Source: Microbacterium sp. STN6 (GTDB taxonomy: Bacteria; Actinomycetota; Actinomycetes; Actinomycetales; Microbacteriaceae). Taken from it: a stretch of 64,000 nt of DNA. The stretch spans positions 558,001 through 622,000 of the forward strand of contig NZ_JAPMIT010000002.1 in NCBI RefSeq assembly GCF_026410545.1. Direction: 5' to 3'. The number at the start of each line of letters is the position of its first letter. The first letter of the stretch is position 1. A program made the position numbers and the translations under genes. The notes under the pieces were generated by a model. The model searched no databases and had not been told where the DNA came from. It saw only the letters and a list, made by a program, of their open reading frames with translations. Shown here piece after piece: positions 13,471 through 54,824 of the stretch.

Positions 13471-13517
13471 CCTCGGATTATGGCACAGCGTCGTAAGCGG
13501 CTCCCCACAGCCGGGCG

Positions 13518-13766
13518 TGCGATAATGGGGGGCAAGTCATCGCCGGCCGCGCCGGTGAGACGCCAAAGAAGGCTTTACGGGCGAACTTCGCCCAGTGCCC
13601 GCATCGAAGAAACGATCGGGAGAACATCGACCAGATGATGATGTGATCAGAGCCACAGGGCCGGTCGCATCACGTGAGAATTGGCGGCAGCCCGCACCGG
13701 CGGGCCCGCTCGAGAGAGTAACCGGACGGTGGCGCGGCCCCCATCCGGTCGAGGAGTGCACCAGAG
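13518..13766 (+). promoter_or_regulatory. Promoter and long structured 5' leader of rne
   Basis: An extended -10 (TGCGATAAT, 13518-13526) precedes roughly 230 nt of leader before the RNase E start. The leader contains hairpins such as GGGCGA-ACT-TCGCCC (about 13577-13591) and GC-rich stems closer to the gene, with Shine-Dalgarno GAGGAG at 13751-13756. A long structured leader suits feedback control of RNase E on its own mRNA, as known for rne elsewhere. No Rfam family is recognised from memory, and the function here is inferred. Confidence 0.5.
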
Positions 13767-16256
13767 ATGGTGGAAGACGACAACACGAACAATCAGGCAG
13801 CAGACAATACGACGGGGGAGACGAGGAAGCGCGGCAGGCTTTTCGGTTCGCGGCGAGCGAGCCGTAAGCCGGAGCAGGCCGAGGTCGAGGTCGTCGCTGA
13901 GGCGACCGCACCCGCCGATCCCTCCGCTGGTCGAGTAGGCGCCAACGGCGCCGTATCGAGACCCGCCCACGAGCACGTCGAGCCCGCGGCCGAGCCCCCG
14001 CAGGCGGATGCGCCCGCACAGACGGTCACGGCAGAGTCGGCCGCCGAGCCCGCGCCGGCACCCGAGGTGTCGGCCGCGCGCACCGGCCTGCCATCCACAT
14101 CGATACTCTTCAAGGCGCCAGACATCGTTCCGCTGCCACCCCTGCCCGGAAACGAGCGCGAGGAGCGCGACGACCGCGGCGACGAGCCCGAGGAGGGCAC
14201 CCGAACGCGCAAGCGCCAGCGCCGCCGCTCGGGCGATTCAGGTGACGAGTCGTCGTCACGGTCGCGCCAGCGCGAGGCGCCCGAGCCCATCACGGAGCCG
14301 CAGCGCATCAAGGGTTCTACTCGGCTCGAGGCGAAGAAGCAGCGACGCCGGGATGGCCGCGACGCCGGCCGTCGTCGCCCCGTCATCACCGAGGCCGAGT
14401 TCCTCGCCCGCCGTGAAGCCGTCGACCGCACCATGATCGTTCGCGAGAAGAACGGGCGCATCCAGATCGGCGTGCTCGAAGACAGCGTGCTCGTCGAGCA
14501 CTACGTCGCCCGCTCGCAGGAGGCGTCACTCATCGGCAACGTCTACCTCGGTCGGGTGCAGAACGTGCTGCCGAGCATGGAGGCGGCGTTCGTCGACATC
14601 GGACGCGGCCGCAACGCGGTGCTGTACTCCGGCGAGGTCGACTGGGAGGCGGCCGCGGAGAACGCGGGCGGCAACCAGGCCCGCCGCATCGAGCTCGCGC
14701 TGAAGCCGGGCGACAAGGTTCTTGTGCAGGTCACGAAGGACCCGGTCGGCCACAAGGGTGCGAGGCTCACGAGCCAGGTCTCCCTGCCGGGGCGGTACCT
14801 CGTCTATGTGCCGAACGGCTCGATGAACGGCATCAGCCGCAAGCTGCCCGACACCGAGCGCGCTCGCCTGAAGAAGATCCTCAAGGAGGTTCTGCCCGAG
14901 AACACCGGCGTCATCGTGCGCACGGCCGCCGAGGGGGCGACCGACGATCAGCTGACGCTCGACGTCAACAGGCTGCGCGCCCAGTGGGAGGCGATCAGCG
15001 CGCAGGCCGAGAACGGCCAGGCGCCCGCCATGCTGCACAGCGAGCCCGACCTGCTCATCAAGATCGTGCGCGACGTCTTCAACGAAGACTTCCACCGCCT
15101 CGTCATCGAGGGCGACGAGGCCAGGGAGACCATCGAGCGCTACCTCTCGCAGGTGGCCCCCGACCTGCTCGAGCGCGTCGAGCGCTACGAGGGCGCGAAG
15201 GACTCCTTCGACGAGTTCCGCATCACGGAGCAGATCGAAAAGGCGCTCGAGCGCAAGGTGTGGTTGCCGTCCGGCGGCTCGCTCGTCATCGACCGCACGG
15301 AGGCCATGACGGTCGTCGACGTCAACACCGGCAAGTTCGTCGGCAGCGGCGGCAACCTCGAAGAGACCGTGACGAAGAACAACCTCGAGGCCGCGGAAGA
15401 GATCGTGCGTCAGCTTCGCCTACGCGACATCGGCGGCATCATCGTGGTCGACTTCATCGACATGGTGCTCGAGACCAACCGCGACCTCGTGCTTCGACGC
15501 CTCGTCGAGTGCCTCAGCCGTGACCGAACGAAGCACCAGGTCGCCGAGGTCACCTCGCTCGGCCTCGTGCAGATGACGCGCAAGAAGCTCGGCCTCGGCC
15601 TGCTCGAGACCTTCAGCGAACCGTGCGAGGTGTGCGCGGGCCGCGGCGTGGTCGTGCACCACGACCCTGTGGCCAAGCACCGCTCATCGTCGAACTCGTC
15701 AGAACGCCGCCGCGGCAAAGGCGGGAACGGCGGTGGCAACGGTGGCGGCAGCAGCAACGCGCCGGCCGTCGCGCCGCACGCCATCACCGATGACGCCAAG
15801 AACGCGCTCGCCCAGATCGCCGCAAGCACGCTGGCCGCCCACGCGGCCGATCTCACGACCGAGCACGGCCAGGAGATCACCCAGGCTCGCATCGACGACG
15901 TGATCGCCGAAGAGAAGACCGAGGAGAACGCATCGGGCCGCACCGGCAAGTCGAGCCGCGGCCGAAAGCGTGACACCGGTCGCCAGACCGCTGAGCAGAA
16001 TGCCGAGCAGCGCACGGAACAGGCCATGGAGCAGAGCACCGTCGCGATCCTCGACATCCCCATTGAGCCGGCCCCCCGCGCCCGTCAGCGCGCGAAGAGC
16101 AGCGAGACCGAGCACCTGCTCGACTCGGTGCTCGAGGCGCTCCCACAGCCGAAACAGCCCGGCCACGGCCGTTCCCGCAGCCGTCGGGTGACGACGGCTG
16201 CTCTCACGGGTGTCGCGGTCACGCCCGAGAGCGCGGGCGAGACGCACCAGGCGTGA
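13767..16256 (+). CDS. rne: Ribonuclease E/G
   Basis: 829-residue endoribonuclease of the RNE/RNG family for mRNA decay and rRNA/tRNA processing. A disordered N-terminal extension of about 200 residues rich in P, A, E and R precedes the S1 domain (EDSVLVEHYVARSQEASLIGNVYLGRVQNVLPSMEAAFVDIG, residues about 236-275). The catalytic core includes VVDVNTGKF and DFIDM, and the zinc-link CEVCAGRG follows. The C-terminal tail is again low complexity (GKGGNGGGNGGG). N-terminal extension and glycine-rich tail are normal for actinobacterial RNase E. A palindromic repeat (13923-13963) lies in frame in the N-terminal extension. Confidence 0.95.
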   Translation: MVEDDNTNNQAADNTTGETRKRGRLFGSRRASRKPEQAEVEVVAEATAPADPSAGRVGANGAVSRPAHEHVEPAAEPPQADAPAQTVTAESAAEPAPAPEVSAARTGLPSTSILFKAPDIVPLPPLPGNEREERDDRGDEPEEGTRTRKRQRRRSGDSGDESSSRSRQREAPEPITEPQRIKGSTRLEAKKQRRRDGRDAGRRRPVITEAEFLARREAVDRTMIVREKNGRIQIGVLEDSVLVEHYVARSQEASLIGNVYLGRVQNVLPSMEAAFVDIGRGRNAVLYSGEVDWEAAAENAGGNQARRIELALKPGDKVLVQVTKDPVGHKGARLTSQVSLPGRYLVYVPNGSMNGISRKLPDTERARLKKILKEVLPENTGVIVRTAAEGATDDQLTLDVNRLRAQWEAISAQAENGQAPAMLHSEPDLLIKIVRDVFNEDFHRLVIEGDEARETIERYLSQVAPDLLERVERYEGAKDSFDEFRITEQIEKALERKVWLPSGGSLVIDRTEAMTVVDVNTGKFVGSGGNLEETVTKNNLEAAEEIVRQLRLRDIGGIIVVDFIDMVLETNRDLVLRRLVECLSRDRTKHQVAEVTSLGLVQMTRKKLGLGLLETFSEPCEVCAGRGVVVHHDPVAKHRSSSNSSERRRGKGGNGGGNGGGSSNAPAVAPHAITDDAKNALAQIAASTLAAHAADLTTEHGQEITQARIDDVIAEEKTEENASGRTGKSSRGRKRDTGRQTAEQNAEQRTEQAMEQSTVAILDIPIEPAPRARQRAKSSETEHLLDSVLEALPQPKQPGHGRSRSRRVTTAALTGVAVTPESAGETHQA
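13923..13963. repeat. Palindromic intergenic-type repeat inside the rne coding region
   Basis: The stretch runs CCGCTGGTCGAGTAG, then a GGCGCC-AAC-GGCGCC hairpin, then GTATCGAGACCCG. Its ends (CTGGTCGAGTA and TATCGAGACC) have the shape of the dispersed palindromic repeats I recall between genes in Microbacteriaceae (GGTTTCGA...CTCAACCAGC). Here it is translated as roughly SAGRVGANGAVSRP in the disordered N-terminus of RNase E. Confidence 0.55.
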
Positions 16257-24230: not shown

Positions 24231-24249
24231 GGCTCGGCTCTGGGTTTCG

Positions 24250-24362
24250 AGACGCGCCTTGCGGCGCTCCTCAACCCGCCTGCGGCGCTCCTCAACCCGC
24301 CTGCGGCGCTCCTCAACCCGCCTGCGGCGCTCCTCAACGTGCCTGGAGCGCTCCTCAGCCCA
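24250..24362. repeat. 21-bp tandem repeat derived from a CTCAACC-type palindrome
   Basis: A GGGTTTCGAGACGCG element at 24242 is followed by four 21-bp units (24261-24344) built around GCGCTCCTCAACCCGCCT and one degenerate unit. The last copies overlap the stop codon of the LacI gene (24355-24357). The first copy with its upstream GTTTCGAGACG reconstitutes one palindrome, so the array looks like slippage on one arm of a dispersed repeat. Confidence 0.75.
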
Positions 24363-25392
24363 CGTGCCGCGGGGCGGCGGTACTGCTGCGCACGACAAGG
24401 CGGGTCGGTGCCACGACCATGCCCGGCGTCGTCTCGCCGCGCTCGATTTCGGCAAGCAGGATCTCGATGCTTCGGCGGCCGACCACGTCGAAGTCCTGGT
24501 GGATCGTGGTGAGCGGCGGCCAGAACGAGTCGGCCTCGGCCATGTCGTCGAAGCCGACCACGCTGATGTCGCCCGGCACGTCGATGCCGCGCTCGTGGAA
24601 CGCGCGCAGCGCGCCGAGCGCCATCTGGTCGTTCCCGGCGAAGACCGCGGTGACGCCCGCCACGCGGGAGAGGTCGAGCCCGGCCGCGTAGCCCGAGGCC
24701 GTTGACCAGTCGCCGCGAACGGCATCCGGTACCTGGCGCCCTGCCTGCACCAGCGTGTCGCGCCAGGCCTGCTCGCGGCGGGATGCCGAGTACGACGTCT
24801 CGGGACCGGCGACATGCCAGACCGTGTCGTGGCCGAGGTCGAGCAGATGCTGCGTGGCGAGACGCGCCCCCTGCATCTGGTCGGTGTCGATGACGGGGTA
24901 GTCGTCACGCTCGGCCGAATCGATCACGACGACCGGCAGCCCCGGGGGCAGCTCGACGTCTGCCTTGTCGACGATATGAGCTTCGATGACGATGACGACC
25001 CCGTCGACGGCCTGTTCGATGAGGCGGGCCAGGGCGACACTGACATCGCTCTGCGTCGTGTGCTCGACGGGAACGAGCGTGATGGAGTAACCGGCCCGTG
25101 CTGCGGCGACCGCGATGGCGTCGAGGGTGCGCATGTTGCCGAACGACGAGAGCGTGAACATGATGACGCCGATGTTGCGGAAGCGGCCCAGTCGGAGGGC
25201 CCGCGCCGCCTTATTCGGGCGATAGCCGAGGGTGCGCATCGACGCCAGGACACGCTCGCGGGTGCCCTGTTCCACGTTCTGCAGGCCGTTCGCCACGCGC
25301 GAGACGGTTTGGGTCGAGACGCCCGCATGGGCCGCGACGTCTCCCATGGACGGGCCGCGAGAGGCGGAGCGCGCAGGTAACACTTCGGTCAT
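24355..25392 (-). CDS. LacI family transcriptional regulator
   Basis: 345-residue repressor. The helix-turn-helix is at residues 15-40 (MGDVAAHAGVSTQTVSRVANG) with the hinge RPNKAARALR, followed by a periplasmic-binding-protein-like sensor domain (NIGVIMFTLSSFGN; VFAGNDQMALGALRAFHERG; VVGFDDMAEADSFWPPLTT). ATG at 25392 has GGAGAG upstream. It is divergent from the sugar transporter/beta-galactosidase genes, and two operator-like sites lie between. Its inducer is presumably the imported galactoside. Confidence 0.92.
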   Translation of the reverse strand: MTEVLPARSASRGPSMGDVAAHAGVSTQTVSRVANGLQNVEQGTRERVLASMRTLGYRPNKAARALRLGRFRNIGVIMFTLSSFGNMRTLDAIAVAAARAGYSITLVPVEHTTQSDVSVALARLIEQAVDGVVIVIEAHIVDKADVELPPGLPVVVIDSAERDDYPVIDTDQMQGARLATQHLLDLGHDTVWHVAGPETSYSASRREQAWRDTLVQAGRQVPDAVRGDWSTASGYAAGLDLSRVAGVTAVFAGNDQMALGALRAFHERGIDVPGDISVVGFDDMAEADSFWPPLTTIHQDFDVVGRRSIEILLAEIERGETTPGMVVAPTRLVVRSSTAAPRHVG

Positions 25393-54464: not shown

Positions 54465-54824
54465 CCGCTCATGGTAGAGGCTCGCGGCAGAGGCTCATGG
54501 CAGAGGCTCGCGTTACGCGGCCCTCAACCGCGGTACGCGATCCTCAACCGCGGTACGCGACCCTCAACCGCGGTACGCGACCCTCAACCTCCGACTCGCG
54601 CCGCACGCTTCTGCAACACGTGCGCTTCTGCAGGAGGAATCGACCGACACGCGGTTACCCCATGCCTCCGTCACGGCGCGTCGCCCGATTTCTCCTGATA
54701 GAGCGCCGCCGAGGTTTCGAAGCGACGAGGCCGACGGCCTAAAGCGACCGTCGCGGCGAGCCGCACCTCGACGCCTGTAAATAAATTGCACGCGCTTGCG
54801 CGTTCTTTACGTAGAATGGGCGGC
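54465..54824. other. Repeat-rich intergenic region upstream of the second LacI gene
   Basis: The 360-bp region contains a 13-bp repeat (GCAGAGGCTCGCG type, about 54475-54512) and a 20-bp repeat at 54521-54589 with three full units plus a partial one built on CTCAACCGCGGTACGCGA. GAGGTTTCGAAGCGACGAGG lies at 54710, with AT-rich sequence before the LacI gene. No coding potential is supported. The operator-like palindrome at 54790-54803 is listed separately. Confidence 0.75.
54790..54803. promoter_or_regulatory. Palindrome ACGCGC-TT-GCGCGT, probable LacI operator
   Basis: A 14-bp symmetric sequence, 22 bp before the LacI ATG. It shares the octamer GCTTGCGC with the opposite strand of 55849-55856 upstream of the GH13 gene. 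Together they suggest a LacI regulon of the regulator and the alpha-glucosidase/transporter genes. Confidence 0.55.

Follow-up and report, generated by a model that had tools for sequence, protein, structure and literature searches.

The window analysed here is a stretch of 64,000 nucleotides from the genome of Microbacterium sp. STN6. The element under study lies in the coding sequence of rne, and the features that concern it are the following.

13767..16256, + strand: rne, the host gene, RNase E/G family, 829 aa (ORF and Pfam RNase_E_G)
13926..13964, + strand: whole element of 39 nt, flanking GCT...C included, read as codons 54-66 of rne, AGRVGANGAVSRP
13929..13963, + strand: 35-nt family core, type A, GGTCGAGTAG...CGTATCGAGACC (pattern matches and covariance model)
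13929..13932, + strand: 5' foot GGTC, pairing with GACC at 13960-13963
13935..13938, + strand: GTAG tetranucleotide (GGAG in type B), from the sequence; the letters are those of the REP head tetranucleotide in the excerpts of PMC8266576
13938..13952, + strand: inner hairpin GGCGCC-AAC-GGCGCC, stem 13938-13943 with 13947-13952, loop 13944-13946
13960..13963, + strand: 3' foot GACC (covariation of the paired ends)
24243..24276, - strand: another intact copy within the window, of type B, GGTTGAGGAG...CGTCTCGAAACC, in a gap where two called genes converge (pattern and covariance model)

The rne copy in its reading frame

The rne element at 13929-13963 (+) is built as GGTCGAGTA-GGCGCC-AAC-GGCGCC-GTATCGAGACC and reads GGTCGAGTAGGCGCCAACGGCGCCGTATCGAGACC in full. 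With its context it forms a 39-nt unit of exactly 13 codons, from A54 to P66 of rne, and the frame used avoids a TAG stop present in another frame of the element. The original prediction had placed a palindrome in the coding frame of rne at 13923-13963. It is there, in the frame of the 829-aa ORF 13767-16256, which is presumably translated, and the coordinates were correct to within 3 bases, the unit with context being 13926-13964. The last G of the GTAG at 13935..13938 serves at the same time as the first base of the inner stem, and the foot pair 13932/13960 is C-G in the rne copy and T-A in the type B copies.

An RNA hairpin is predicted for the element. The folding energy of this single copy is only modestly better than that of shuffles (z -1.5, and -2.0 and -1.7 for the two strands taken separately), and the evidence for the element is the family of copies. 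The covariance model, built from 28 copies including the one in rne, recognised the rne copy in the window with 53 bits (E 3.8e-13). Rfam gave no match for the element at E up to 1 in 13500-14400. The rne linker is rich in Ala, Pro and Glu and highly variable. The AlphaFold model of the protein had a mean pLDDT of 45.7 and was poor in the catalytic domain as well, so it says nothing about disorder at the N-terminus. In our reading, the variable N-terminal arm gained 13 in-frame residues from the element, before the conserved core; this gain is probably neutral, and no new function of RNase E is expected from it.

Copy number and types in the genome

The genome of Microbacterium sp. STN6 (G000; 3.15 Mb, 5 contigs) contains 26 copies of GGTCGAGTAGN{4,34}ATCGAGAC and none of the same pattern read backwards. 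A loose two-arm pattern with 132 matches against 24 reversed was replaced by the strict pattern GGTYGAGNAGN{4,34}TCGARACC, which found 214 copies and 0 in the reversed control; the segment had been described as a repeat of the dispersed type, and this search for further copies bears that out. The covariance model scored at least 149 matches among 150 candidates. The elements are 27-41 nt long and most of the 116 copies examined share the context GC[G/T]...C, with G at -3 in 97 %, C at -2 in 87 % and C at +1 in 74 % of copies in G000.

For G000, contig C1 and the first 582 kb of C2 were listed in full and hold 100 copies in 66 clusters. Of these 100 copies, 77 belong to type B, which begins with GGTTGAGGAG and ends with ...CGTCTCGAAACC, and 16 to type A (GAGTAG; GGTCGAGTAG...CGTATCGAGACC), the type of the rne copy. 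Halves of the element also occur as arrays. At 24243-24371 of the window, one half of the element (GCGGCGCTCCTCAACCCGCCT) is repeated several times in tandem, in units of 21 nt, behind a type B copy, and a 20-nt tandem repeat at 54509-54588 (CGCGGTACGCGACCCTCAAC) resembles a half-element array of the same family.

Hairpin structure and covariation

The ends are common to the copies, and the cores differ yet stay paired through compensatory changes. The aligned rows were picked by a pattern that fixes most of the end bases, and the evidence comes from the free columns only. Among 28 distinct 35-mers, 97.0 % of cells were paired against 80.2 % in shuffles, the covariation score was 0.405 against 0.111, and 50 cells were changed on both sides against 13.9. 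Once the partner was slid by 1-3 bases, at most 49.2 % of cells still paired. Of the five covariation measures on the 35-mers, two did not stand clear of the shuffles, namely the pairs changed on both sides, where 217 of 500 shuffles did as well, and further pair types (43 of 500). For 20 distinct 33-mers the values were 98.8 % paired against 81.9 % and a score of 0.387 against 0.097. When the feet were left free they were fully complementary in 117 of 139 matches, including GATT/AATC and GGCT/AGCC, some of these matches being counted twice in overlapping stretches.

The stem is preceded by GTAG in type A and GGAG in type B (three of the four letters are fixed by the search pattern), and the outer helix of the feet encloses this tetranucleotide. 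A C-GNA-G triloop was present in 74 of 106 copies of G000 with an odd core, or 36 of 62 distinct ones. Loops of this kind are known to form unusually stable DNA mini-hairpins, a hint that the element may pass through a stage as single-stranded DNA.

The hairpin type differs among the three genomes sampled. Distinct odd-core copies of G000 mostly have perfect stems (50/62) and a tandem G-A/A-G mismatch in 1/62. The congener G001 carries the tandem mismatch in 16/18, one pair from the loop, and G029 in 24/33, two pairs from the loop and mostly together with a mismatch at the fourth pair. According to the excerpts of PMC8266576, REPs of different transposases vary likewise, those of E. coli needing a mismatch bulge and others being perfect palindromes.

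Placement relative to genes

Copies are depleted from genes and rare between divergent genes. The 100 listed copies of G000 comprise 67 intergenic ones, 7 lying across a gene end and 26 inside called genes; 16 of the 66 clusters fall inside called genes, and the coding share of a 464-kb sample is 89.8 %. The intergenic clusters are located in 24 convergent, 23 same-direction and 2 divergent gaps, while the sample has 63 divergent gaps among 227 that are at least 35 nt long. Copies prefer the 3' ends of genes, and among 74 intergenic copies beside a gene end, 51 are oriented like the gene with the nearest 3' end and 23 opposite. Samples of the other genomes had 9/39 copies (G001) and 2/58 (G029) inside called genes.

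Inverted doublets, often with a near-fixed spacer, occur in all three genomes, in a share that differs between them. Close pairs are inverted in 12 of 38 cases in G000 (26 are direct), in all 17 in the sample of G001 and in 20 of 32 in that of G029. The spacer of close +/- pairs measures 13-14 nt in 7 of 11 in G000, and 16 of the 17 inverted pairs of G001 have 14-17 nt between the copies.

Copies inside genes

Our first census found strict copies inside 19 called genes of G000, and dense stretches added more; genes were called by a custom caller based on codon usage, and a few of these 19 may have wrong starts. The copies are spread over a wide range of unrelated genes; more than one reading frame is used, and the element points either way. 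Hosts recognised by Pfam with copies between or inside the recognised parts are MenB, MenD, MobA, DnaX, a 2-oxoacid acyltransferase, PheT, an ABC-F protein, NadB, GcvP, acetyl-CoA synthetase, a LuxR-type regulator, TilS, an SNF2 helicase and an FMN oxidoreductase, the gene names being presumed from the Pfam families. In MenD, Pfam sees the N-terminal domain and a solved MenD structure matches both halves. The single copy in the 2-oxoacid acyltransferase is degenerate and could be due to chance. Copies at termini were found in NadC, LeuC, an aldolase, Mrp and a LacI-type regulator, several of which may have wrong starts, and the copies in an MFS protein and in an FHA protein are doubtful, as the start of either gene may be wrong. 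We take DnaX, PheT, TilS and RNase E to be essential.

Copies inside genes remain in frame. Where a gene contains tandem copies, these repeat every 45, 48, 51 or 54 nt, and their spacings are multiples of three in 13 of 13 cases inside five genes, against 3 of 28 outside genes (9 of 9 in four genes without the doubtful FHA gene), which is direct evidence that the reading frame constrains the copies. The original prediction that such elements insert into coding DNA where a linker tolerates it agrees with the in-frame copy in rne, but tolerance is wider than linkers, as PheT, TilS, MenB, MobA, GcvP and the SNF2 helicase have copies between or inside recognised domains.

TilS (L388:6242-7462) carries four tandem 51-nt units of the element, giving GFETGAGAPSST peptides, in the middle of the PP-loop domain. 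NadB (L226:13823-15655) has about 100 residues of mostly element-derived peptides, in both orientations, between the FAD and C-terminal domains. In G029, which represents a third genus, a class I tRNA synthetase of the I/L/M/V type (L306:8848-12291) has the element between the catalytic and anticodon-binding domains.

Comparison of orthologous sites

If the segment was inserted, as predicted, it should be missing from other rne genes, and the strict element was indeed found in 0 of 108 recognised rne N-terminal regions (110 loci, two of them unrecognised, some from the same genome). Loose two-arm matches in nine of the N-terminal loci look like chance. The linker is too variable between species for an exact empty site to be placed in rne, and the exact insertion point there is unprovable.

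Clear comparisons of filled and empty sites come from other genes. At the PheT site, 28 of 29 orthologues are without a strict copy; the congener G001 has one copy and the window genome three. UDP-glucose dehydrogenase contains a 39-residue doublet in G001 and none in the window genome, and at this one clean filled/empty pair no target-site duplication was seen. In MenD, the elements of G000 and G001 agree in position, orientation and reading frame but have different cores. Out of 22 flanked clusters of G001, nine could be compared with parts of G000 (the PheT site was included as already known), and four of them are occupied in both congeners and five in G001 only. With four of nine sites filled in both species, some insertions are old, and since the cores differ in all four, the sites seem to outlast the cores.

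Distribution among genomes

The strict pattern has at least 8 matches in 11 of 59 related genomes, all from the same family, Microbacteriaceae, with counts of 214, 157, 26, 17, 24, 8, 104, 52, 10, 116 and 358. The other 48 genomes have 0-4 matches each, together more than the 6 matches of the reversed control; most of those listed have no paired core and are probably chance matches, but at least one, on contig C383 of G051, is clearly genuine and lies outside the family. A second set comprised the 41 genomes behind the named loci. There, 8 or more matches occurred in Leifsonia sp. Root4 (75), Agromyces subbeticus (100), Agromyces sp. ISL-38 (64), Galbitalea sp. SE-J8 (358), which is probably the same genome as G029, and a Glaciihabitans MAG (13). 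Leifsonia aquatica has 3 and 16 Microbacterium genomes have 0-3. Nocardioides cremeus (G098, locus L099), which is outside Microbacteriaceae, has 41 pattern matches, a count only.

We searched IMG/VR with the type B pattern and obtained 0 exact matches, and on this basis carriage of the element by phages was rejected. The Y1 transposase family PF01797, the single transposase family covered by our search, was absent from G000 and from all 11 element-rich genomes (0/11). The search detected it in 5 of 14 control genomes and in 3 of the 59 genomes overall, all three element-poor. Inspection by eye of the first 80 residues of the genes in 12 dense stretches found no transposase-like gene flanked by copies. 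A RAYT still present in the genome was rejected as the mover, none having been found in G000 or in the 11 element-rich genomes.

Relationship to known repeats

Depletion from genes, preference for gene 3' ends and inverted doublets, though in a share that differs by genome, mean that the elements behave like REP/REPIN elements. As far as the excerpts of PMC3733652, PMC8266576 and PMC3116915 describe them, GTAG-type REPs and REPINs are alike in being 20-50 nt hairpins that lie mainly between genes, close to 3' ends, with some copies inside ORFs. The GTAG that precedes their stem (GTAG or GGAG in the present elements, with three of the four letters set by the search pattern) and their inverted doublets may be further points in common. 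The placement of REPs in the excerpts of PMC3733652 is that of the G000 copies, and the same excerpts mention in-frame copies inside genes for several families of REPs, noting DNA repair and tRNA metabolism among the functions of the genes. The differences are that the hosts are Actinobacteria, that the element-rich Microbacteriaceae genomes are without a Y1 transposase, and that here the outer feet are common to the copies while the stem varies from copy to copy. We did not class the elements as RAYT-mobilised REPs because none of the 11 element-rich genomes has a Y1 transposase.

Rickettsia has palindromes (RPEs) that were inserted without loss of frame into many genes unrelated to one another, according to the excerpts of PMC10969869. 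By that description, and compared by description and not by sequence, RPEs measure about 150 bp, whereas the elements of Microbacteriaceae have 27-41 nt and are mostly intergenic. MITEs are likewise small and dispersed, with inverted ends and in-frame fusions known (excerpts of PMC10969869), but the Microbacteriaceae element had no target-site duplication at the one clean site and no parent transposon is known, PF01797 alone having been searched. Among the literature matches listed (open-licence full texts; the letters of the family, and palindromes or REPs in Actinobacteria), we found no description of this family, and one Agromyces match on palindromes or REPs concerned CRISPR. What is new is the Microbacteriaceae lineage and the missing transposase; in-frame palindromes themselves were already known.

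Probable origin and proposed spread of the element

It is likely, in our judgement, that the rne segment is one copy of a family of REP-like short hairpins which has multiplied in the genomes of several members of the Microbacteriaceae. On the other side, no transposition event, enzyme or target-site duplication was seen, direct pairs outnumber inverted ones in G000, and some sites are filled in both congeners. If the palindrome had arisen by chance in coding DNA that is GC-rich and of low complexity, or were an ordinary motif of the rne linker, this would fit the variable Ala/Pro/Glu-rich linker and the folding z of only about -2 for the single copy, but this explanation is refuted by the copy count (214 against 0 reversed) and opposed by the lack of the strict pattern in the orthologous regions, and its probability is almost nil. 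That the hairpin is instead a selected RNA element, such as a processing or feedback site in the rne message, is improbable. The RNA hairpin predicted here speaks for it, as does the self-regulation of rne in other bacteria. A role of REPs in mRNA stabilisation and termination has been hypothesised (PMC3733652, excerpts). The strict copy is missing from all the orthologous regions, however, and genes with no relation to rne contain the same element in large number, in either direction and in more than one frame. Some role of the element in the regulation of rne is conceivable.

A more serious competitor, still rather doubtful in our view, is a classical REP/REPIN family that was once mobilised by a now-lost RAYT (Y1 HUH), the copies being fossils spread only by duplication and gene conversion. 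This would account for the GTAG/GGAG before the stem, the inverted doublets, the many tandem copies, and the mismatch type that varies by genome as REPs vary by transposase (excerpts of PMC8266576). On the other hand, the absence of PF01797 from all element-rich genomes would require repeated independent loss in each, and the sites that are filled in a single congener point to spread, or to loss, since the two species separated.

For the REP-like family as we see it, we infer the mode of spread as follows. Elements would be copied to new places via a single-stranded hairpin intermediate, as is presumed for REPs, by an enzyme that would either not be a Y1/RAYT transposase or have since been lost. 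Selection would purge most insertions into genes, and the copies surviving there would be those with a whole number of codons, a stop-free frame and a spot in the protein that tolerates extra residues. In rne, the 39-nt unit would have lengthened the variable arm at the N-terminus by 13 codons, before the conserved core. A further, tentative idea, which we hold possible but would not favour, is a REPIN-like system without RAYT, in which a putative enzyme reads the conserved feet together with the single-stranded hairpin type of each genome (perfect stems in G000; tandem G-A/A-G mismatches near the GNA loop in G001 and G029). Cores, even those in essential genes, might then be rewritten to the local type in each genome, so that the protein inserts would evolve in concert across the proteome.

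These results raise the question of what moves REP-like hairpins in genomes without RAYT. Short palindromes inserted in frame, so far described in Rickettsia and in some genomes with REPs, are now seen in Microbacteriaceae as well, including the core machinery DnaX, PheT, TilS and RNase E. Other conserved proteins of the window genome and of its sister species have also been lengthened by the same kind of repeat, and the copies make up a natural set of insertions that maps where proteins tolerate added residues.
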